In this document: positions 30,926 to 59,523 of the stretch, in pieces
How positions within the stretch are numbered: position 1 is the stretch's first letter
Layout of the letters: the number at the start of each line of letters is the position of its first letter
Notes under the pieces: model-generated
Databases searched by the model: none
The model's input: only the letters and a program-made list of their open reading frames with translations
Told to the model about the DNA's origin: nothing
NCBI RefSeq assembly: GCF_025999835.1
Contig: NZ_AP025628.1
Span: 1,550,001 to 1,614,000, forward strand
Direction of reading: 5' to 3'
DNA from: Caldinitratiruptor microaerophilus
Lineage (GTDB): Bacteria; Bacillota; Sulfobacillia; Symbiobacteriales; ZC4RG38
Length of the DNA stretch: 64,000 bases
Made by a program: the position numbers and the translations under genes

Positions 30926-31798
30926 TCAATTCCTCCCCACCGGCGGCACCCCGAGGAGTCCCCAGGGCCGGACGATCAGGATGACGGCCATGGTCAGGTA
31001 CACGAGCGCCAGCTCGAACACCGGGAAGTAGGCGATCCCGAACGAGCGCAGGAGGCCGATGAACACCGCCCCCACGAGCGCCCCCCAGATGCTGCCGAGC
31101 CCGCCCACCACCACGACGATGAACGCCTCGATCACGACCTCCACCGCGAAGCCGGGCGAGACCGTCTGAATCGGCAGGATCAGGGCCCCGGCGAGGCCGG
31201 CGAGGGCGCTCCCGGCGGCGAACACGGCCGCGCCCAGGGCCGGGACGCTGTACCCCAGCGCCTCGGTCATCTCCCGGTCCGCCGACGCCGCCCGGATCAC
31301 GGCCCCCACCCGGGTGCGGTAGAGCACGACCCACAGCAGCACCGCCACCGCGGCGGCGATCGCCATCAGCGCCAAGTAATAGGAAGGAAAGAGCGCCGAG
31401 CCCACCTGCACCGGCCCGGCGAAAGGGGGCGGGAACGAGAGGGACTTGTAGTCGCGGCCCCAGATGAGCTTGACCGCGTCCTCGGACACCAGGACGAGCC
31501 CGTAGGTCAGGAGGATCTGGTACAGCTCTTCCCGGGCGTAGAGAAAGCGCAGGAGCCCGCGCTCCAGGGCGATGCCCAGGGCTGCGAGCACGGCGAGCGC
31601 CGCCAGCGTGCCCACCCAGAACCTCCCGGTCACCCCGCCGGCCGCCGCGAAGGCCACGTACGCCCCCAGCATGGCCAGGGACCCGTGGGCGAAGTTCACG
31701 ATCCGCATGACCCCGAAGATGAGGTTCAGCCCCGTCGACAGCAGGAACAGGAAGGACGCGAAGGTGAGCCCGTTGAGCACCTGCAAGACGAGTGCCAC
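30926..31798 (-). CDS. livH: LIV-type ABC transporter permease LivH
   Basis: 290-residue permease. Motifs: LLSTGLNLIFGVMRIVNFAHGSLAMLGAY, the coupling loop RTRVGAVIRAASADREMTEALG, and VVVGGLGSIWGALVGAVFIGLL. About eight membrane helices are apparent. It follows the binding-protein gene after a GC-rich hairpin that may reduce expression of the membrane genes. Confidence 0.92.
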   Translation of the reverse strand: MALVLQVLNGLTFASFLFLLSTGLNLIFGVMRIVNFAHGSLAMLGAYVAFAAAGGVTGRFWVGTLAALAVLAALGIALERGLLRFLYAREELYQILLTYGLVLVSEDAVKLIWGRDYKSLSFPPPFAGPVQVGSALFPSYYLALMAIAAAVAVLLWVVLYRTRVGAVIRAASADREMTEALGYSVPALGAAVFAAGSALAGLAGALILPIQTVSPGFAVEVVIEAFIVVVVGGLGSIWGALVGAVFIGLLRSFGIAYFPVFELALVYLTMAVILIVRPWGLLGVPPVGRN

Positions 31799-49625: not shown

Positions 49626-50840
49626 TCAGAACCTCGTGGGAACCAGGCTCGACTCGACCGTGATCCGGTTGCGCTGCCCCCCGGCGTCCTGGACCGTGAA
49701 CACCCCGGCCACCGACATCTGCGACTGCTGCACCGGGATGAGCTTCTCGTCCTCCCAGGCCGGGTCCTGGATCGATACCTTGAACCGCTTCGTCTCCCCG
49801 GGTCCCACCGTGCCTTCCGGCTCCACCGCAAACAAGTGCGGGTACCCGGGGTCGGCCGTCGCCCGGTTCACGAAGGTCAGGTTCGATGTGGTGAACTCGA
49901 CCAGACGGACGGGCTCGTTCCCCAGGTTCGTCACCTCAACCTCCATGGCCAGCGTGTCCGTATCGGGATCGTACGTGGCCGCCGTTGCCCTGGCCTCGGC
50001 AAAGCGCAAGGGCTGGGCGATCTCCGGTGGCTCGAACCGGATGACCTGCTGGGGGATCCGCACCGGGAAGGCCCGCTGGATGTACATCCAACCGGCGGCA
50101 AGGAGAACGACCGCCAGGAGAGCCACCACGTTGACGAACCGGTGATCGGCCTTCGTGATGAGGCCGACAGCCGCGCCGTCGTCGTTGATCGGCAGTTGGC
50201 TCGTGACCGCTAGCCGCGTCACCGTCGGCTTCGGCCCGGTCCAGTACCACATCCACCATAGCCCCAGGACGAGGCCGAAGAGGGCCCACCCCACCACGAA
50301 CCCGGTCTGGTAGCGCTCCAGGTCCACGGTCCTGCCGTCGAAGAGCGTCACCAGGTTCCGGAATCCGCCCGCCGCCTCCTGCACCGTGATCCACTGCCCC
50401 GGCCCCAGGAGCGAACCGGCGCCCTCGATGGCAAGCACCGGGTGCACGTGCCACTGGCCCGGCCGGCGCCCTTCGACCGTCATCCGGAACTCGTAGACCC
50501 CACCCTTCCGGACGAAGATCGAGCCGGGCGCCGGCTTGCCGTTCACGATCCTCTCCTTCATCACCACCACCGGACCCGGCGCCACCACGCCCAGGTACGC
50601 CACCTCGGGCTCCGGTAGCGTAGGCGGCCAGGTCTCCAGGATCTTCGCCGTGCCCGTGATGGTCAGGGACTCGCCCTGCTTCACCGTGTCCGCGGAGAAC
50701 CTCACGTCGAAGAAGGCGACGGTCTTCTGCCTCAGGAATGCCTCCTGAGCGCGCTCGCCGTGGGCGAACACGCCCGAGGTCAGTCCCACCGAGAGCCCGA
50801 TGGCCAGGGCGAACGTGAAAAGAAGCCGCTTCATTCTCAT
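49626..50840 (-). CDS. pmoB: Copper membrane monooxygenase subunit B (PmoB/AmoB/HmoB-like)
   Basis: 404 residues: signal peptide cleaved at FA|HG, an N-terminal cupredoxin domain, two membrane helices (about 182-204 and 240-258) and a C-terminal cupredoxin domain ending SSLVPTRF. The CuB ligands are all present: H27 as first residue of the mature protein (HGERAQEAFLRQKTVAFFD), and H131 and H133 in WHVHP. They correspond, six positions earlier, to H33, H137 and H139 of Methylococcus. The start overlaps the stop of the small ORF (ATGA). It is the last gene of the C-A-x-B operon, with a hairpin after it. This order differs from C-A-B by the inserted gene. Confidence 0.95.
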   Translation of the reverse strand: MRMKRLLFTFALAIGLSVGLTSGVFAHGERAQEAFLRQKTVAFFDVRFSADTVKQGESLTITGTAKILETWPPTLPEPEVAYLGVVAPGPVVVMKERIVNGKPAPGSIFVRKGGVYEFRMTVEGRRPGQWHVHPVLAIEGAGSLLGPGQWITVQEAAGGFRNLVTLFDGRTVDLERYQTGFVVGWALFGLVLGLWWMWYWTGPKPTVTRLAVTSQLPINDDGAAVGLITKADHRFVNVVALLAVVLLAAGWMYIQRAFPVRIPQQVIRFEPPEIAQPLRFAEARATAATYDPDTDTLAMEVEVTNLGNEPVRLVEFTTSNLTFVNRATADPGYPHLFAVEPEGTVGPGETKRFKVSIQDPAWEDEKLIPVQQSQMSVAGVFTVQDAGGQRNRITVESSLVPTRF

Positions 50841-51116: not shown

Positions 51117-51881
51117 CTATACCTGCTTCAGGAACCTGCGGATGGGCCAGACGGCCAGGTAACGGCCGATGAACTGGCCAACCCAGTACCCGGCGATCGC
51201 CAGCGTAGCGCCGAAGGCGAAGGCGACGTACTGGGCCTCCTGCAGGAAGGTGCGCAGCGACCCGTGCTCGATGACGCGCAGGTATTCCGGGGTCTGCATT
51301 CGGAGATAAGCGATGCCCTGGACGTCCGCAAGAGTGACGACGTGCCCCATGAACTGCACGGGTTGCAGGAAGGGCGCCAGCGGAACATAGTTGCCCACCC
51401 ACAGGGCGAGGGTCCACACCATCCCGCCGATCAGGGAGGTGAGCACGAAGCTCCGGGTCTTCAGGAGGATCCAGTCCATCAGGATCCCGGCCAGGATGGT
51501 CGACTGCGGCCACACGAAGTTGAGCGGATAGGAAACGAGGACCTTCCACTGCAGCCACCGGCCGATCCACGAAGCGAGGAACAGGCACACGGACGTATAG
51601 GTGGCGCCCGTGGGGAACCGCCACGCCGCCCACTGGATGTACTGGAGCGCCGACGGAATGATGATCATGGCAAAGGGCGTGATGGTCATCCACCACTGCC
51701 GGTCCTTCCAGTCCGTCCACATGTCCCAGTCGCCCGCGAACAGGAGCTTCGTGATGTCCGCGGCGGCCGCCACCACGAACGCCGCGGTGACCCAGAAGAC
51801 GAGATCCCACTTGCGGTCGATGAACCGGTACTTCTTGTTCACGAGCTGCCGGAGCTCTTCCACCCGCGCGACCGTCGCCAC
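51117..51881 (-). CDS. pmoA: Copper membrane monooxygenase subunit A (PmoA/AmoA/HmoA-like)
   Basis: 254 residues, about seven membrane helices. The universal primer region GDWDMWTDWKDRQWWMTITP is present. Family stretches YPLNFVWPQSTILAGILMDWILL, ADVQGIAYLRMQTPEYLRVIEHGSLRTF and the IGR-containing end also align by eye with PmoA. GTG 51881 is chosen because GGAGGAGG lies 7 bases upstream and the size then equals known PmoA (about 247). The local pattern reminds me of Gram-positive hydrocarbon monooxygenases more than of ammonia monooxygenase, but a tree is needed. Confidence 0.95.
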   Translation of the reverse strand: MATVARVEELRQLVNKKYRFIDRKWDLVFWVTAAFVVAAAADITKLLFAGDWDMWTDWKDRQWWMTITPFAMIIIPSALQYIQWAAWRFPTGATYTSVCLFLASWIGRWLQWKVLVSYPLNFVWPQSTILAGILMDWILLKTRSFVLTSLIGGMVWTLALWVGNYVPLAPFLQPVQFMGHVVTLADVQGIAYLRMQTPEYLRVIEHGSLRTFLQEAQYVAFAFGATLAIAGYWVGQFIGRYLAVWPIRRFLKQV

Positions 51882-51920
51882 ACCGCTCCCTCCTCCACAT
51901 CCAAGACTCATCTTGATCGT

Positions 51921-51959
51921 GCGGCCCTGCCGGCGCCACGCGGACGGCGGCAGGGCCGC
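51921..51959 (-). promoter_or_regulatory. Stable hairpin between pmoC and pmoA
   Basis: Perfect 12-base arms GCGGCCCTGCCG (51921-51932) and CGGCAGGGCCGC (51948-51959) with a 15-base loop, 12 bases after the pmoC stop. There is no T-run, so it more likely protects or processes the pmoC message than terminates it; similar hairpins follow amoC in nitrifiers. Confidence 0.7.
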
Positions 51960-51971
51960 AACCACAGGGGG

Positions 51972-52775
51972 TCAGCTGGCCGCCCCCACCTCAGTGGGCA
52001 TCTCGATCTCCTTCTCGATCTGGTACAGACGGATGATCGTCTCGGCCCACAGGGCGAAGATGCCGCCCGCCAGCCACCCGTACGTCACGAACGGCCAGTG
52101 GAAGGGGGCCGCGAAGAACTCCTCCGCCCACCACAGGCTGTGGCCCCATTCGTTGAACGCCACCTGCAGCATCTCGGTGACCGAGGCGGCGATGAGGAAG
52201 GCGAAGGACCAGGGGAACCCCCTGGACGGGCCGTACACAGCTGGCAGACGCGTACGGCCGTAGAGGTAGGTGCCGATGCTGAACGTGATGCCGAGGGGGA
52301 ATGCCATGTAGAACATCACCACGTGCGGCGGCGTGATTGCCGTGTCACGGACCACGGTCTGGTGCCACGCACCGTCCTGGTTCGGGAAGAAGCTGGCCAT
52401 GAAGTAAAGGATGAGGCTCGTGATCCCCACGAGGCCCCAGAAGGTGGCGATCCGGCGCACCTCCTCCCGGGCGTCGACCTTCTCCGCGGCCAGCGCCCGG
52501 CCCGACTTGACGAGCCACCCCCACCAGAGGCCGGTGAACGCACCCACAGACAGGATCTCCGCGACGAACAGGCTACGCCAGTACAGGGTGAAGTCGTAGC
52601 TGGCGGAGTCGAGCCCGGCGGTCCAGAACCGGAGCACGTACAGCTCGAGCCCCAGGAAGAGCGCCAGCACGGCGGCGTAGCCCCACAGGAGGGTCCGCCA
52701 GCCACCGAGCCAGTCCGTCGGGCCGTATCGCTCGGAAACCACCCGCCGTTCCTTCACGGATGCCAGGGTTGCCAT
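51972..52775 (-). CDS. pmoC: Copper membrane monooxygenase subunit C (PmoC/AmoC/HmoC-like)
   Basis: 267 residues with about six membrane helices. The CuC/CuD ligand pattern is complete: D134, H138 and H151 (D-x3-H-x12-H, in PNQDGAWHQT and TPPHVVMFYMAFPLG) match D156, H160 and H173 of Methylococcus PmoC, and N208 and H212 (FNEWGHSLWWAEE) match N227 and H231. The segment FAAPFHWPFVTYGW is also conserved. A GGAGGAGGAGG site precedes ATG 52775. It is the first of the monooxygenase genes, 157 bases after the alcohol dehydrogenase gene. Confidence 0.95.
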   Translation of the reverse strand: MATLASVKERRVVSERYGPTDWLGGWRTLLWGYAAVLALFLGLELYVLRFWTAGLDSASYDFTLYWRSLFVAEILSVGAFTGLWWGWLVKSGRALAAEKVDAREEVRRIATFWGLVGITSLILYFMASFFPNQDGAWHQTVVRDTAITPPHVVMFYMAFPLGITFSIGTYLYGRTRLPAVYGPSRGFPWSFAFLIAASVTEMLQVAFNEWGHSLWWAEEFFAAPFHWPFVTYGWLAGGIFALWAETIIRLYQIEKEIEMPTEVGAAS

Positions 52776-52932: not shown

Positions 52933-53976
52933 TCACGGGACCAGGACCGCCCGTCCCTTGACGCGGCCGCCGTGGAGGTCGGCGATAGCCTGGTTCACCT
53001 GGTCCAGGCGGTAGTGCACCGTAGCAAGACGCACCCGGCCCTCACCCGCCAGGGTCATGAGCTCCACGAGGTCCGTGTAGGTGCCCACCAGGTTCCCGAC
53101 GATGTTCTTCTCGCTGAAGATCATGTCGATCGCGGGCACCCGGATCGTTCCCCCGTACCCGATCACGAAGTAGTAGCCCGCGTTCCTCGTCATGGCGAGC
53201 CCCTGTTCGATGGAGCCTCCCTCCCCCACGAAGTCCAGCACGGCCTGCGCGCCCCTTCCGCCGGTGAGGTCGAGAACCTCGCGGACGGCGTCGTCGCCGC
53301 CCTTGACCCGGTACTCCGCCCCGAGCTCCTGGGCAAGGCTCAGGGCCAGGTCGGAGCGGTCGACCACGATGATCCGGGCGGGCGACAGGGTCCGCAGCAC
53401 CTGGAAGGCGATGTGCCCCAGGCCGCCCATGCCGATGATCACCGCGTGGTCGCCCGGCTCGAGCACCCTCACCGCCTTCTTGGCCGCGTGGTAGGCCGTG
53501 AGGCCGGCGTCGGCGTGCGGGGCGACCTCCCTGGGCTCCACTCCGTCGGGCAGGCGGACGAGGTTGCGCTCCTTGACCAGCAGGTACTGGGCGAAGCCCC
53601 CGTCCCGGTTGATGCCGGGGAACACGCCGTTCTCGCAGTGCATGTCGTTGCCCCGGCGGCAGGCCGGGCAGACGCCGTCGGTGATGAGGGGGTGGACGAT
53701 CACCGGGTCGCCCCGCCGGAAGCGGCGCACCCCGCGCCCCACCTCCTCCACCCAGCCGGCGTTCTCGTGGCCGAGGATGTAGGGCAGGTCGACCTCGACC
53801 TTGCCCCGCCAGATGCCCTCGATGATGTGCAGGTCCGTGCGGCAGAGCCCGGCGCCACCGATGCGGATGATCACGTCGTCGGGCTCCTGGATCTCGGGGT
53901 CGGGCACCTCTTCCACCTTCAGGAACTCGGGCCCCCGGAACTCCGGATCGTATTCGTACAGCCTGGCGGCCTTCAC
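52933..53976 (-). CDS. Zinc-dependent alcohol dehydrogenase of the monooxygenase operon
   Basis: 347-residue medium-chain dehydrogenase. Catalytic-zinc region GGAGLCRTDLHIIEG and GHENAGWVEEVG; structural-zinc lobe CPACRRGNDMHC with the first of four usual Cys replaced by Asp; NAD loop VIIGMGGLGHIAFQVL followed by VVDRSD. It should oxidise the alcohol released by the monooxygenase. The start is 6 bases after the DUF59 gene. In actinobacterial soluble propane monooxygenase clusters a similar gene follows the same two accessory genes (from memory). Confidence 0.92.
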   Translation of the reverse strand: MKAARLYEYDPEFRGPEFLKVEEVPDPEIQEPDDVIIRIGGAGLCRTDLHIIEGIWRGKVEVDLPYILGHENAGWVEEVGRGVRRFRRGDPVIVHPLITDGVCPACRRGNDMHCENGVFPGINRDGGFAQYLLVKERNLVRLPDGVEPREVAPHADAGLTAYHAAKKAVRVLEPGDHAVIIGMGGLGHIAFQVLRTLSPARIIVVDRSDLALSLAQELGAEYRVKGGDDAVREVLDLTGGRGAQAVLDFVGEGGSIEQGLAMTRNAGYYFVIGYGGTIRVPAIDMIFSEKNIVGNLVGTYTDLVELMTLAGEGRVRLATVHYRLDQVNQAIADLHGGRVKGRAVLVP

Positions 53977-53982
53977 GCGGCA

Positions 53983-54699
53983 TCACCTCGGTTGGACAGT
54001 CTCGGGTTCGGCGGACCCGTATCGCGTCCGGAGCAGCCCCTGGCAGAACTGGGCGTTGAACTCCATGCTGATGCGGGTGCGCCGGGCCTCCCGGAGCACA
54101 TCCCGGAGCTGCGCGGGGTTCAGCAGTAGCCCGTTCTCCCGCGTGAAGGCCGGGGCGGTGGGGAGATCCTCCAGGCCCATCTCGCGGCAGATGCCAAGGT
54201 ACCGGTCCACCAGGTCGCCCGCTTCCGCGTCGCTTTCCGCGAGGCGGCGAAGGTCGGCTACGCACATCGCCACGATCTCGTCGTCGGACAGCCCCCGGCG
54301 GATGAGGAGGCGGACAAGGCGCTCCTGGCGGGCGAGGAAGGCCTTGAGGCGGAACAGCCAGCGCAGGTCCTCCAGGTTCCCGTCGGCGAGGCCCGAGAAG
54401 GCGGCGCCAAAAGGTCTGCCGGTCGCCACCCCGGCGTTCACCTCATCGGCTGCGAAGTGGTCCTCCAGCCGGACCTGCACCTCGGATACCCACGGCAGCT
54501 CCCGGACCCGGTCCCGGATATCTTCGGCCATGATGTAAGCGAAGTTCGGCGAGCACCAGTACGTGGGCAGGCGGAACCGGACACGCACCACGGGGCCGTC
54601 GACGTCCACCCCGCTGATGAACCCGAGGTCCGTGACAGGGCGGTCGAGCTCCGGGTCGTAAACCTGCTGGAGCCGGGCGTAGACCTCCTCCACTCGCAT
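53983..54699 (-). CDS. DUF59/MIP18-type metal-sulfur assembly protein
   Basis: 238 residues. An N-terminal DUF59 domain (EEVYARLQQVYDPELDRPVTDLGFI, LPTYWCSPNFAYIMAEDIRDRV) is joined to a helical C-terminal half. DUF59 proteins (SufT, PaaD, Cia2) help load metals or Fe-S clusters. In propane monooxygenase clusters the same fused type occurs, so it probably supports the monooxygenase or dehydrogenase. ATG 54699 has AGGGGGGAC upstream; the longer frame has no matching N-terminus. Confidence 0.85.
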   Translation of the reverse strand: MRVEEVYARLQQVYDPELDRPVTDLGFISGVDVDGPVVRVRFRLPTYWCSPNFAYIMAEDIRDRVRELPWVSEVQVRLEDHFAADEVNAGVATGRPFGAAFSGLADGNLEDLRWLFRLKAFLARQERLVRLLIRRGLSDDEIVAMCVADLRRLAESDAEAGDLVDRYLGICREMGLEDLPTAPAFTRENGLLLNPAQLRDVLREARRTRISMEFNAQFCQGLLRTRYGSAEPETVQPR

Positions 54700-54719: not shown

Positions 54720-55742
54720 TCACGCCATCATGGCGGCGACCGCGTCCCCCTGAAGCCGGGCCCTGTGAGCGGCGATGTCGATCCCGTAGAGTCGGGCGGC
54801 GTTCTCGCCCAGGATCTTCTTCTTCGCGGCGAGGGTCAGGTCGACCCCGGTCTCCTCCCTCAGGTCCTCCGGAAGCTCGAAGGCCATGAACTTCTCGATG
54901 ATCCACCGCGGCGTCCATATCGCGTAGTCGCTGCCGAAGAGGAGCCTGTCCTCGCCCACCCACCACAGTAGCTCGGCCATGACCTCCGCGAAGTACCGCG
55001 GCCGGGCGTGGACGAACGGCATCACGACAGCCAGCCCGCCGTAAACGTTCTTCTCCTGCGTCGCGATCCAGCAGAAGTCTTCGAGCCGCGGCAGACCGCA
55101 GTGGTCGACGATGAAGTTGAGGTCCGGAAAGGCGGTCGCCACCTCGTCCACATCGTGCACGTCGAAGGCGTCCTTGTTGAGCGGCCAGACCGTCGGGCCC
55201 TTGTGCACGTGGATGTTCGTGATGCCAAGCTGGCGGCACTTCTCGAGGTAGCGGATGGCCCAGGGGTCGGTGAGCCGCCAGCCCTTGGAGTCACCGCGCC
55301 ACTCCGCGGTGTAAAGCTTCACGCCCTTGATGTGGTAGCGCGAGGCCAGGAACTCCAGGTACTCCAGCCCCCGCTCCCCGTCCCGGGGGTCCCAGGCACC
55401 GTTGAGGATGAAGCGGTCCGGGTACATCTCCTTCAGGACTGCGTTCTGCTCGGTCGTGTTGAAGCCGCTGCGGAAGAACTCCTTGAGGTACGTCGGCTGG
55501 AAGATCCCGATGTCTACATAGCCCTCCACGAAGAGGTCGTGGACCATCTGCTGCGGTGTGTACTTGCGGAATTTCTCGATGGGCCAGATCGCTTCCCTCG
55601 GGCTGAGGTTGCGATGGTAATCGTAGAAGCAGTTGATCCACCCCGTGCCGTACTGGTTCGCCTGGTTCTCGGGCGAGCCGTCCCACAGATGCACGTGGGC
55701 GTCGATGACGAAGATCTCCCCGCCGTCTGGTGTGCGGAACAC
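54720..55742 (-). CDS. Amidohydrolase-2 family protein of the alkane monooxygenase accessory set
   Basis: 340-residue TIM-barrel hydrolase. FVIDAHVHLWDG (H-x-H), NCFYDYHRNLSPREAIWP, GIFQPTYLKEF, NIHVHKGPTVWPLNKDAFDVHDVDEVA, VDHCGLPRLEDFCWIATQEKNVYGGLAV and FGSDYAIWTPRWIIEKF. Nearly every block matches the metal-dependent hydrolase I remember from mim/prm propane monooxygenase clusters of actinobacteria, where it is thought to help assemble the oxygenase. GTG 55742 has GGGAGGT 7 bases before it; a longer frame to 55805 lacks such support. Confidence 0.9.
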   Translation of the reverse strand: MFRTPDGGEIFVIDAHVHLWDGSPENQANQYGTGWINCFYDYHRNLSPREAIWPIEKFRKYTPQQMVHDLFVEGYVDIGIFQPTYLKEFFRSGFNTTEQNAVLKEMYPDRFILNGAWDPRDGERGLEYLEFLASRYHIKGVKLYTAEWRGDSKGWRLTDPWAIRYLEKCRQLGITNIHVHKGPTVWPLNKDAFDVHDVDEVATAFPDLNFIVDHCGLPRLEDFCWIATQEKNVYGGLAVVMPFVHARPRYFAEVMAELLWWVGEDRLLFGSDYAIWTPRWIIEKFMAFELPEDLREETGVDLTLAAKKKILGENAARLYGIDIAAHRARLQGDAVAAMMA

Positions 55743-55813
55743 GTCAGGCACCTCCCAGCAGAGTAAGACAGGAACCCATGGTCGCCAGGCCGGAAACCGG
55801 GACACCGTCCCCG

Positions 55814-56374
55814 TCAGACCGGCACTCGTTCACCGCGCACCATGCGGACGAACTCGCGCAGGAGCGCGGGATGGTCCGGCCAGGCGCGGGCCGACACCAG
55901 GTTGCCGTCCACGACGGCCTCCTGGTCGACGAACGTACCGCCCGCCGCCTCGACGTCGGGCTTGAGGGCCCAATACGCCGCCATCTTCCTGCCCTTCACC
56001 ACCCCCGCGGCAACGAGTACCAGGGCGGCATGGCAGATCGCGCCGACGGGCTTCTGGTTCTCGAAGAAGTGGCGCACGATCTCCAGGGCACCGGGTTCGT
56101 TGCGGATCCACTCGGGTGCCCTGCCGCCCACCAGGTACAGGGCGTCGTAGTCTGCAGGCCTGACCTCTAAGAAGCCGAGATCGGCCTGCACCCGGTAGCC
56201 GGGCTTCTCCGTGTAGGTCTCCATGTCGGGTTCGAAGTCGTGCACCACCGTTTGCAAAACCTTCTTGCGCGGCGCCGCGACGTGAACCTCGAAGCCCTCC
56301 TCCCTGAGCCGCTGAAGCGGGTACATCGTCTCCAGGGCTTCGGCGCCGTCCCCGGCCATCAGCAGTACCTTCAC
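55814..56374 (-). CDS. DJ-1/PfpI family protein
   Basis: 186 residues. The nucleophile elbow VGAICHAALVLVAAGVVKG carries the catalytic Cys, with the usual upstream Glu likely in GDGAEALETMYPL. LYLVGGRAPEWIRNEPGALEIVRHFF is also typical. Members act as proteases, deglycases or glyoxalases; here protection from reactive aldehydes would make sense, but that is inferred. Its GTG start overlaps the iclR stop (GTGA), so the two are co-translated. Confidence 0.88.
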   Translation of the reverse strand: MKVLLMAGDGAEALETMYPLQRLREEGFEVHVAAPRKKVLQTVVHDFEPDMETYTEKPGYRVQADLGFLEVRPADYDALYLVGGRAPEWIRNEPGALEIVRHFFENQKPVGAICHAALVLVAAGVVKGRKMAAYWALKPDVEAAGGTFVDQEAVVDGNLVSARAWPDHPALLREFVRMVRGERVPV

Positions 56375-57168
56375 GCGACTTCACCTCCGGACGGTCCGAT
56401 GGTCTGGAAAACCACCTTGCGGAGAATCCCCGCAAGCCTTCGTCCCTCGACCTGAAACCGTCTTGGCGTCACCGCGATCCCCATCGCGCCAGCCACTGTC
56501 TCGCCGCCGTCCCGGGCCAGTACAGGCGCCGCCAGGCAGCAGATCCCCTCCTGATACTCCTCCCGGTCCACGGCCAGACCCGTCCGGCGGACCCGTGCCA
56601 GCTCGGCTCGGAGCCGCTCCGGGTCGGTAATGGTGCGCGGCGTGAAGCCCCTCAGGCCCAGGAGGCGTATGTAAGTGTGCAGGGCGGTGTCGGAGAGGTG
56701 CGCCAGCAGGATCTTGCCCACCGCGAGGGCGTGCGCCTCGCCGCGGATTTCACGGCCCATCCGCAGCCCAGGCTGACCTTGGTGCCCCTGCACCGCCTCG
56801 ACCAGCGCCGCCTGTCCGTCGTACACGACGAGGTAGGCCCGGCAGCCGGTGGCTCTGTTGAGGTCCCGCAAAGCGTCGCGGAGGACCGGCAACGGACAGG
56901 AGCCGGATGGCCTGACCGGGGACAGGAGGTCTTCCCGGAACGCGCTGACGTAGTGACGACCGTCTGCGGGGCTCCGGTAAGCGAATCCTTCCTGGCAGAG
57001 GCTGTTCAGGAGGTAATAGGCCGTGTGGGGGCTCTTGCCCAGATGCTGGGCCACCTCGGCAGGGGTGACGCCGGCGGGATGGTCCGCCAGGTAGGAGAGC
57101 ACCCTCAGCACCGCTCTCGCCGTGCTCAGGGCCCGCTGACGCCCCGGATCCGTCGGAACGCGGGGCAC
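56371..57168 (-). CDS. IclR family transcriptional regulator
   Basis: 265 residues with an N-terminal winged helix (TPAEVAQHLGKSPHTAYYLLNSLCQEGFAYR) and a C-terminal effector domain (GEAHALAVGKILLAHLSD, YQEGICCLAAPVLA). GTG 57168 is preferred: GGGAGGT lies 7 bases upstream, whereas GTG 57177 would sit inside that site. A perfect palindrome at 57207-57220 lies about 40 bases upstream and could be its operator. It is the first gene after the sigma-54 promoter, so it may add negative or ligand control to the operon. Confidence 0.88.
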   Translation of the reverse strand: MPRVPTDPGRQRALSTARAVLRVLSYLADHPAGVTPAEVAQHLGKSPHTAYYLLNSLCQEGFAYRSPADGRHYVSAFREDLLSPVRPSGSCPLPVLRDALRDLNRATGCRAYLVVYDGQAALVEAVQGHQGQPGLRMGREIRGEAHALAVGKILLAHLSDTALHTYIRLLGLRGFTPRTITDPERLRAELARVRRTGLAVDREEYQEGICCLAAPVLARDGGETVAGAMGIAVTPRRFQVEGRRLAGILRKVVFQTIGPSGGEVA

Positions 57169-57206
57169 GGTGTCCACCTCCCGAACCCCTCGGGATCGAG
57201 TTCAGT

Positions 57207-57220
57207 GTAGAAAATTCTAC
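57207..57220. promoter_or_regulatory. Palindromic operator GTAGAA-AA-TTCTAC
   Basis: Perfect 6-base arms around AA, in the leader between the sigma-54 promoter and the iclR start. AT-rich palindromes of this size are common IclR-family sites. A second, weaker repeat (TTGCA...TGCAA) lies at 57247-57261. Confidence 0.6.
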
Positions 57221-57372
57221 CCTATCTCTCAACAAAGCCACTTCCGTTGCAACATGTGCAAGGCATGCCGCCGAACCCGGCCCTTGTGCATCACCTCCCG
57301 CGCCGGCGTGCGCGGCGAGGCCGCCCACCGGCCGGCTGCCCGGATCACCCTCGTCGCCGCAAGCCTCCGGAG

Positions 57373-57390
57373 ATGCAAAGCCCGTGCCGG
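57373..57390 (-). promoter_or_regulatory. Sigma-54 (-24/-12) promoter of the alkane monooxygenase operon
   Basis: The minus strand reads CCGGCACGGGCTTTGCAT: GGCACG at -24 and TTTGCA at -12, with exactly 10 bases between GG and GC. Only the first T of TGGCACG differs from consensus. Expected start of transcription is near 57363, about 195 bases before iclR. Half of an 8-bp hairpin (57381-57402) overlaps the -24 box and could also end the activator transcript. Confidence 0.85.
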
Positions 57391-57438
57391 GAGGGGCACG
57401 GGTACACACGCGGTCGGCGGCTCGCGGATGCCCCTGTC

Positions 57439-57496
57439 GGTGTCGCGCCCTGCGACACCGGCCGCCAACAGGCCGCAGTGTCGCAAACGGCGACAC
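57439..57496. promoter_or_regulatory. Paired activator sites TGTCGC-N5-GCGACA
   Basis: Two inverted repeats with the same core and spacer: GGTGTCGC-N5-GCGACACC at 57439-57459 and GTGTCGC-N5-GCGACAC at 57478-57496. Their centres are 38 bases apart and about 86 and 124 bases upstream of the predicted start, the usual placement of enhancer sites. They end 32 bases from the stop of the sigma-54 activator gene. Confidence 0.85.
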
Positions 57497-57528: not shown

Positions 57529-59523
57529 TCATGATAGTTTTCGGTAGATGGTGCTCCGGTGGATGCCCAGTCTCCGGGCGGCAGCCGTCACGTTCCCACC
57601 CGACTCGGAGAGAGCGACCCGGATGAGCTCCCGCTCCTGTTCTTCAAGGGTACCCACATCCGAGCGAACCGGCAGAGACAGGGACCGAGTCCTGCGAACC
57701 GCCGGCCCAGCCGGCGCGGGGTGGGTTGCCGGGGGGCCAGGCGCGGCGAACCGGTCCCGGCTCGCGGCGTATACCTCCGGGGGCAGGTGCTCGGGCCGCA
57801 CGACCGGACCATCGACCTGGAGGGCCAAACGATACGCGACGTTGCGCAGCTCCCGAACGTTGCCCGGCCACGGGTACTCCCAGAGAAGGGCCAGGGCCTC
57901 CGAACTCACGTGGAGCGGCGGCCGGGCCAGCTCCTCGCACGCGCGGCGGAGGAAGTGGTCGAGGAGGAGGGGGATGTCGTCCCGGCGCTCGCGCAAGGGG
58001 GGCAGGGTGAGGCACACCACCGACAGCCGGTAGAACAGGTCTTTCCGGAAAGTACCCTCCCGCATGGCCTTCTCCAGATCCCGGCTCGTCGCTGCGATCA
58101 CCCGGATGTCCAGCCGGATGGGGGCACGCCCGCCGATGCGGACGACCTCGCGTTCCTCCAGCACCCGCAACAGGTGTACCTGGGCGTCGGGCGGCATCTC
58201 GCCGATCTCGTCGAGAAAGATGGTACCGCCACGCGCCAGCTCGAACTTGCCAGGCTTTCCCTCCCGGCTGGCACCCGTGAAGCTGCCGGGATCATACCCG
58301 AAGAACTCGCTGGCAACGAGTTCGCGCGGGATTGCCCCGCAGTTCACGGCCACAAACGGTCCGTGGGCGCGGGAACTCGCCGCGTGAATGGCCTGGGCGA
58401 GCCGCTCCTTGCCGGTTCCGCTTTCCCCGAGAATGAGCACTGGAAGCGAATGGGCGGCAGCCTGTTGCCCGGTCAGGATCACGCGGCGGAATGCCTCGGA
58501 CTGACCCATCAGTTCCTCGAACCGGCACCGGGGCAGAGCCTTGGTCCCGCTGCCGCGCCCACTCACCGCACCTGCCCGCATCAGCGCGCCGACTACCCGG
58601 CCGCCCTGGATGACGGCACGGAGCTCACACCGGTACCGGCCTCGCCGGCCCTCCACATCCCACTCCACTGCCGATCCCAGTTCCAGCCACCGGTTCGCCT
58701 CCGGCAACCCGAACGGTCGGCCGTTCGGATCCAGAAGTCCCTCCTCCATGAGCGCGTCCGAACCGGCGAGGACCCGGCCGCCCCGGTCCAGGGCCGCCAG
58801 CACCTCCTGTGCCTGTCTACGGGCGGAGGAATAGGCCGCGATGACCGCCGCTCGTTCCCACTCGGCTTCCCTGTGCAGTTCGCCTTCGACGGCCCGGGCC
58901 ACGGACGTCACCAGCACCAGGGAGTGGGGATGCACCGCCGCGAACGGCCCCGTGAGATCGATCACGCCGAGCAGAGACCCGGTCACCGGATCGCGCACGG
59001 GGGCGGCCGAACACGTCCAGGAGTGGACGATCTGGCACCAGTGTTCGGCGGCGAAGATCTGCACCGGCAGGCCCGTGGCCAGCGCGGTGCCGATCGCGTT
59101 CGTGCCGGCGGTCGCCTCGGCCCAGCGGGCGCCCGGCACGAAGTTCATCCTCTCAGCCCGCCGGCGGACCAGGCGATCCCCCTCGACCGACAGGAGCAGG
59201 CCGGACGCGTCGGCGATTACCACGAGGTGGCCAGAGTCGGCAGACGCGGCCTTCATCTCATCGAGCCAGGGCTGAGCGACCTGCAGGAGCCTGTCGTACC
59301 GGCAACTCCGGGCGATCTCCTCCTGGGATGCCACAATGGGGGCACGATGGTTCAGTGGGTGCACGCCGCCGCTCCGGCACCGGGTCCACGATGCAGCTAC
59401 GACCTCGCGGACGCGTTCGGCGCCCCCTTCACCTGACACAAATCGCTCCCAGAGACCTTCGAGCACTTTGTTGTGGCGCTTGGGACTGGTGTAGATGTCG
59501 ATGGCGATGTTCGGGTTCCGCAC
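57529..59523 (-). CDS. Sigma-54-dependent activator, AcoR/MimR type
   Basis: 664 residues. N-terminal GAF-type sensor (ATAGTNAIGTALATGLPVQIFAAEHWC, LLGVIDLTGPF), a central AAA+ domain with Walker A GESGTGKERLA, the sigma-contact loop GSFTGA (usually GAFTGA), Walker B GTIFLDEIGEMP and the arginine fingers in FRKDLFYRLSV. A Fis-type helix-turn-helix ends the protein (GGNVTAAARRLGIHRSTIYRKL). It lies directly upstream of paired repeats and a sigma-54 promoter, so it very likely activates the whole iclR-to-pmoB operon when it senses the substrate or its alcohol. Confidence 0.93.
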   Translation of the reverse strand: MRNPNIAIDIYTSPKRHNKVLEGLWERFVSGEGGAERVREVVAASWTRCRSGGVHPLNHRAPIVASQEEIARSCRYDRLLQVAQPWLDEMKAASADSGHLVVIADASGLLLSVEGDRLVRRRAERMNFVPGARWAEATAGTNAIGTALATGLPVQIFAAEHWCQIVHSWTCSAAPVRDPVTGSLLGVIDLTGPFAAVHPHSLVLVTSVARAVEGELHREAEWERAAVIAAYSSARRQAQEVLAALDRGGRVLAGSDALMEEGLLDPNGRPFGLPEANRWLELGSAVEWDVEGRRGRYRCELRAVIQGGRVVGALMRAGAVSGRGSGTKALPRCRFEELMGQSEAFRRVILTGQQAAAHSLPVLILGESGTGKERLAQAIHAASSRAHGPFVAVNCGAIPRELVASEFFGYDPGSFTGASREGKPGKFELARGGTIFLDEIGEMPPDAQVHLLRVLEEREVVRIGGRAPIRLDIRVIAATSRDLEKAMREGTFRKDLFYRLSVVCLTLPPLRERRDDIPLLLDHFLRRACEELARPPLHVSSEALALLWEYPWPGNVRELRNVAYRLALQVDGPVVRPEHLPPEVYAASRDRFAAPGPPATHPAPAGPAVRRTRSLSLPVRSDVGTLEEQERELIRVALSESGGNVTAAARRLGIHRSTIYRKLS

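Follow-up and report, generated by a model that had tools for sequence, protein, structure and literature searches.

Caldinitratiruptor microaerophilus JCM 16183 (AP025628) is a Gram-positive, microaerophilic hot-spring bacterium related to Symbiobacterium (PMC9933637). Its genome consists of a single contig of 3,599,694 bp, of which bases 1,550,001-1,614,000 were analyzed (64,000 nucleotides; hereafter called the window). On the minus strand, a gene for a sigma-54 activator is separated by an intergenic region of 351 bp from a row of genes that begins with iclR and ends with the genes of a copper membrane monooxygenase (CuMMO). The features are listed below in the direction of transcription.

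57529..59523, minus strand: sigma-54 activator (bEBP) gene; Pfam domains GAF, Sigma54_activat, AAA lid and Fis-type HTH_8
57479..57495, minus strand: predicted distal upstream activator site TGTCGCCGTTTGCGACA, exact TGTCGC-N5-GCGACA, centred at -124
57441..57457, minus strand: predicted proximal upstream activator site TGTCGCAGGGCGCGACA, exact TGTCGC-N5-GCGACA with arms reaching 9 bp, centred at -86
57381..57402, minus strand: inverted repeat rich in GC, CCCGTGCC-N6-GGCACGGG, sharing bases with the -24 half of the promoter, possible terminator or operator
57374..57389, minus strand: -24/-12 sigma-54 promoter CGGCACGGGCTTTGCA, one mismatch to TGGCAC-N5-TTGCW
57363, minus strand: predicted transcription start, placed by sequence arithmetic, counting 12 bases onward from the C in the -12 GC
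57204..57232, minus strand: sigma-70-like promoter TTGAGA-N17-TACACT, 9 of 12 consensus bases
57207..57220, no strand assigned: AT-rich palindrome GTAGAAAATTCTAC, candidate IclR operator, the only copy in the window
56371..57177, minus strand: iclR-family regulator gene (Pfam IclR_C, HTH_IclR), the first gene of the operon
55814..56374, minus strand: DJ-1/PfpI family gene (Pfam), also present in the Peribacillus module
54720..55805, minus strand: amidohydrolase-2 family gene (Pfam), an accessory gene of the mim/prm type
53983..54615, minus strand: DUF59/MIP18-type FeS-assembly gene (Pfam FeS_assembly_P), syntenic, start codon uncertain
52933..53976, minus strand: zinc alcohol dehydrogenase (ADH) gene (Pfam), product 62% identical to an ADH of a Binatota CuMMO cluster
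51972..52775, minus strand: pmoC-like gene, CuMMO subunit C (Pfam AmoC)
51117..51965, minus strand: pmoA-like gene, CuMMO subunit A (Pfam AMO)
49626..50840, minus strand: pmoB-like gene, CuMMO subunit B (Pfam Monooxygenase_B)

The genes of subunits C, A and B adjoin one another, as Pfam hits revealed, which identifies the enzyme as a CuMMO. Its proteins reached none of the cut-offs for bacterial AmoA/AmoB or for the methane/ammonia equivalogs. PmoA is 61-77% identical to proteins from Binatota, Chloroflexi and Acidimicrobiia MAGs, and the amidohydrolase approximately 55-69% to its counterparts in CuMMO clusters and in clusters of soluble di-iron monooxygenases (SDIMO). No further pmoA was found in 154 genomes of the class or in a 398-genome sample of the phylum, and no groEL gene was detected in the window.

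The first-pass annotation had proposed that a near-consensus sigma-54 promoter and two enhancer repeats control an alkane operon. The -24/-12 element was borne out on the minus strand (57389->57374). Its sole mismatch is a C instead of T at the first position of the -24 box, while GG, GC and the spacing between the boxes are retained. From the spacing of the GC we arrived at the same predicted start, 57363. Both TGTCGC-N5-GCGACA repeats were likewise recovered as exact copies at about -86 and -124, within the interval of some 80-200 bp ahead of the promoter applied to inverted repeats bound by bEBPs; the distal site begins 106 bp before the start of the -24 box. Pattern searches, by which all genome-wide motif work was done, disclosed no other exact copy in the whole 3.6 Mb genome. 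The degenerate form TGTYGC-N5-GCRACA occurred at three further places, all of the TGTTGC type. A sequence with one mismatch to the repeat, TGTGGCCCACGGCGACA, was encountered at eight places (e.g., C1:45073, 1675134 and 2683100) and probably belongs to a dispersed repeat that has nothing to do with the switch.

As a chance control, the 351-bp intergenic region was subjected to 20,000 dinucleotide shuffles. A sigma-54 element bearing one mismatch or none appeared in 111 of them (0.6%), at least one exact repeat in two, a pair of identical 6-5-6 palindromes in one, and the palindrome pair together with the sigma-54 element in none. Two features of the region count against its function as a sigma-54 switch. 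The repeats are 38 bp apart, corresponding to approximately 3.6 helical turns, and thus do not lie on the same face of the DNA. Furthermore, the -24 half is overlapped by the inverted repeat at 57381-57402, whose 8-bp GC arms are followed by CTTT. GGCACGGG could therefore be the 3′ arm of a hairpin that terminates the activator transcript, the match to a -24/-12 element being accidental. We regard this as very unlikely, since the structure lacks a T run, was not called as a terminator and folds no better than shuffled sequences (z-score -1.05), and since the placement of the element matches that of seven other activator-promoter pairs in the same genome.

These pairs came to light by a search with YGGCAY-N5-TTGCW, which gave 18 matches in the genome as against seven for the backward control pattern. 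Eight of the 18, CGGCACGGGCTTTGCA among them, follow an activator AAA+ domain encoded on the same strand at a distance of 535-635 bp from its end, while only 0.045 activator-linked matches would be expected (1.2-kb search window). With about 15 strong activator AAA+ domains encoded in the genome, an activator gene followed by a promoter is thus a recurring layout in C. microaerophilus. It has to be weighed against CGGCACGGGCTTTGCA that seven of the 12 TGGCA-type but only one of the six CGGCA-type matches are activator-linked, CGGCACGGGCTTTGCA being the only such element beginning with C rather than T. A perfect sigma-54 element, TGGCACTCGTCTTGCA (31782-31797, minus strand), lies exactly where an ORF (30926-31798) begins and is for this reason probably a coding or internal site; the ORF presumably encodes a membrane protein similar to ABC permeases for branched-chain amino acids.

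Sigma-54 control depends on the presence of rpoN. One intact copy (458 aa) was identified in the genome, unlinked to the CuMMO cluster. The activator also possesses the parts that had been ascribed to it. Pfam hits and an alignment revealed the AAA+ domain with Walker A (GESGTGKE) and Walker B (GGTIFLDEIGE) motifs, a GSFTGA loop, which is a variant of the GAFTGA type, and a Fis helix with the recognition sequence IHRSTIYRKL. Its gene is linked to the CuMMO cluster in the manner of BmoR/MimR/MmoR-type regulators.

Most of the generic activator homologues in the class have a sigma-54 promoter without a TGTCGC repeat beside them. For this reason, the recognition helices were compared. The sequence LGIHRST[IL]YRK is common to the activators of C. 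microaerophilus, of the Sulfobacillus-type family and to two Peribacillus activators, that is, to a clade whose promoters are associated with the repeat, while the Binatota activator contains GISRTT and most other activators GISR or GVSR. In the activator tree the C. microaerophilus, Sulfobacillus-type and Peribacillus regulators formed a clade of ten members with a support of 100/99. Regulators of proteobacterial SDIMO clusters, 36-39% identical to the C. microaerophilus activator, fell outside this clade. Their clusters have good sigma-54 promoters and differing recognition helices, and only that of Caballeronia showed close matches to the TGTCGC repeat. Regulators of the mycobacterial hmo plasmid (NBB4) were rejected as orthologues because their similarity is confined to the N-terminal GAF region.

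The Sulfobacillus-type family (f8) is a sister family at class level, represented by 34 genomes (SDIMO loci L061-L062 and L091-L096). In seven of these genomes, genes for an amidohydrolase, a DUF59 protein and an ADH are followed by groEL and an activator gene, the whole being divergent from a di-iron monooxygenase; one genome (G124) contains two clusters, two rpoN and two activator genes. The activators are 39-45% identical to that of C. microaerophilus. All eight divergent intergenic regions have a sigma-54-type element facing either side and, in addition, one or two sites resembling TGTYGC-N5-GCRACA. Some of these sites and elements exhibit one to three mismatches, while G054 harbors an exact TGTCGCATTGTGCGACA. 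On the accessory-gene side the site begins 109-123 bp before the start of the -24 box, compared with 106 bp for the distal site in C. microaerophilus. The two systems therefore share a sister activator, the recognition helix, upstream sites, sigma-54 promoters and the amidohydrolase-DUF59-ADH genes. They differ in that the relatives have a divergent di-iron monooxygenase with its own rpoN and groEL, whereas C. microaerophilus has a CuMMO, IclR and PfpI and an unlinked rpoN. We consider this comparative footprinting the decisive support for the switch.

The distribution of rpoN points in the same direction. The gene scored above the cut-off in all seven f8 genomes with a cluster (the copy of G139 being cut by a contig end) and in none of the 27 without; G131 gave a match of 30 residues, below the cut-off. 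In six of the seven, rpoN adjoins the monooxygenase genes, while that of G125 was located on a different contig, the assembly of this genome being fragmented. Since rpoN is confined to cluster-bearing genomes, the sigma-54 dependence of the activator clade is supported independently of the promoter motif. In six f8 genomes checked, no full-strength activator domain was found outside the SDIMO cluster. The loci (L061/L073, L062/L074 and L091-L096) thus have the appearance of a self-contained, single-locus sigma-54 system.

Similar but weaker resemblances to the C. microaerophilus arrangement were seen in two other lineages. On a Peribacillus plasmid the activator gene is divergent from amidohydrolase, DUF59 and DJ-1/PfpI genes, with perfect TGGCACAGTATTTGCA and TGTCGCTTTATGCACCA ahead of the amidohydrolase. 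The activator of a Binatota CuMMO cluster (L046) is less closely related (36%), and this locus shows CGGCACGTGTATTGCT together with a degenerate TGTCGCGCATGGCGCGA. Outside these lineages, a Thermaerobacter-like genome (G048; L075, ~2235000) contains an amidohydrolase gene whose product is 70-78% identical to that of C. microaerophilus; its frame is broken, it lies beside DUF59 and ADH genes, and the locus looks like a cluster in decay. Amidohydrolases with 58-59% identity are encoded by Halorarius and Halomicrococcus plasmids (H41, H42), indicating that the accessory gene has reached archaea.

Related clusters of Thermomicrobium (L083) and of an Acidimicrobiia MAG (L049) likewise start with an IclR gene. 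Both lack a -24/-12 element and any close match to the repeat, no activator gene was present in the stretch read, and no CuMMO or SDIMO was detected beside the Thermomicrobium accessory genes and IclR. These clusters bear on the question of whether the TGTCGC repeats could be operators of IclR or another repressor instead of activator sites. IclR proteins bind palindromes, and the repeats are located upstream of iclR. The Sulfobacillus-type and Peribacillus clusters, however, possess the repeats and the activator without an IclR gene in the stretch read, while the IclR-led clusters of Thermomicrobium and the Acidimicrobiia do without the repeats, which makes a repressor operator highly improbable. 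There is even less to be said for RNA hairpins acting as attenuators or transcript stabilizers. Both repeats fold well as RNA (z -3.6 and -3.0), but any perfect palindrome folds, the repeats precede the predicted start, and it is the bases TGTYGC/GCRACA and not merely their pairing that were kept across lineages. We give this reading hardly any chance. Interpretations of the TGTCGC repeats as a terminator or as IclR operators were considered and set aside.

A potential second layer of control resides next to iclR and had been missed in the first-pass annotation. The sigma-70-like promoter lies twenty-odd bases upstream of the gene, and its -10 region is overlapped by GTAGAAAATTCTAC. Being nearer to iclR than the sigma-54 promoter, this site could supply transcription, which counts against the sigma-54 switch. 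Possibly, then, a working sigma-54 promoter is combined with IclR acting at GTAGAAAATTCTAC over the sigma-70-like promoter (57232-57204), so that the operon needs both signals; IclR may set basal expression or block read-through, which would be compatible with the sigma-54 switch. This proposal gains from the single occurrence of the palindrome in the window and from the fact that IclR heads homologous clusters without the activator. On the other side, the evidence for the sigma-70-like promoter is weak, as the one site detected in the 10 kb scanned compares with 0.7 expected by chance, and no matching palindrome was found upstream of iclR in two homologous clusters checked. On balance, we favor layered control somewhat less than its absence.

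Taken together, the parts of a sigma-54 switch were found in the correct order on the minus strand, the activator gene being followed by TGTCGCCGTTTGCGACA, TGTCGCAGGGCGCGACA and CGGCACGGGCTTTGCA and then by the iclR start at 57177. Homologous accessory operons of other lineages are preceded by the same motif, with a promoter of the same type at like spacing and an activator of the same clade, and the intact rpoN and the genome-wide habit of placing promoters after activator genes fit with them. Thus, the intergenic region very probably comprises a sigma-54 promoter and, ahead of it, two activator sites that would form an activator-driven switch of iclR...pmoCAB. It is a real regulatory region, conserved in its parts and their order, that most likely controls a copper monooxygenase operon. 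While the proposed sigma-54 switch was supported, the terms in which the first-pass annotation had described its target were toned down with respect to "alkane", to the control of the whole operon and to the switch as sole layer. Alkanes are putative substrates of the CuMMO. The genes from iclR to pmoB are co-directional across ~7.5 kb, but the gaps between pmoA and pmoB (276 bp) and between adh and pmoC (157 bp) could hold internal promoters, which counts against the proposed switch.

In the mechanism we propose, which follows what is known of bEBPs, BmoR and MmoR among them, the GAF-AAA+-Fis activator would bind TGTCGC-N5-GCGACA via its IHRSTIYRKL helix, while the GAF domain would sense a small-molecule ligand. 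Alcohols, ketones or similar oxidation products are the probable ligands. The AAA+ ring bound at the repeats would loop to the sigma-54 RNA polymerase at 57389-57374, where ATP hydrolysis and the GSFTGA loop would drive open-complex formation. Transcription from ~57363 would then proceed through iclR, pfpI and the amidohydrolase, DUF59 and ADH genes into pmoCAB, control of the whole operon presuming co-transcription as far as pmoB.

Sigma-54 control of soluble di-iron alkane and methane monooxygenases (BmoR, MmoR) is established, while no report on such control of a copper membrane monooxygenase was found among the open-access papers searched. In Thauera butanivorans, the inducers of BmoR/Pbmo are oxidation products, namely C2-C8 n-alkanols (PMC8784404, PMC8899819). 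This system shares with that of C. microaerophilus a sigma-54 activator of a monooxygenase, there for short-chain alkanes, and a -24/-12 promoter preceded by an inverted repeat. To judge by its description, it differs in serving a soluble di-iron enzyme of a Gram-negative bacterium and in the position of its site, 193 bp ahead of the -24/-12 boxes. The sMMO genes have a sigma-54 promoter upstream of mmoX, a cluster-encoded activator and the GroEL-like MmoG, and the MmoR of Methylocella and Methyloferula contains a GAF domain (PMC5874634). Here, promoter, encoded activator and GAF domain are alike, whereas the MmoR/MmoG/RpoN system governs a soluble di-iron enzyme of Proteobacteria instead of a copper enzyme. 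The actinobacterial Mim clusters (MimABCD, MimG, Adh1, amidohydrolase) encode an acetone-induced monooxygenase (PMC7176365). They have amidohydrolase and ADH accessory genes in common with C. microaerophilus but a di-iron enzyme. Sigma-54 is generally not known from Actinobacteria; the regulator of the Mim clusters would therefore have to work otherwise. The acetone monooxygenase of Methylacidiphilum (pmoCAB3; PMO3) is, like the enzyme studied here, a CuMMO and is induced by C3 oxygenates (PMC8630023), but it has predicted sigma-70-type promoters and other accessory genes. CuMMO genes have also been noted in Bacillota-type phyla, in passages that make no mention of their regulation (PMC12533140). 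Considering the n-alkanols of BmoR and the acetone or C3 oxygenates of Mim and PMO3, alcohols or ketones are the first inducer candidates.

In the trees, the amidohydrolase of C. microaerophilus paired with that of Thermomicrobium (91/96), its ADH grouped with Binatota (93/92), and PmoA was nearest to Chloroflexi and other MAG sequences; apart from the activator clade, these placements are individually only moderately supported. The parsimonious reading of the sequences is that the copper monooxygenase cluster may have been gained horizontally and then put under a Bacillota-type activator. As repeats and promoter recur before unrelated SDIMO genes, one control module appears to be used with two different enzymes. 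There is about an even chance that activator, repeats and sigma-54 promoter constitute a portable module, coupled to the unrelated di-iron SDIMO and copper CuMMO, whose fullest form carries its own sigma-54. If this is true, a sigma factor and a single activator serve one locus in genomes otherwise devoid of both. In C. microaerophilus, the site, promoter and regulator together make up a switch that can be tested in a cultivable thermophile, and knowing the inducer would hint at the substrate of the CuMMO.
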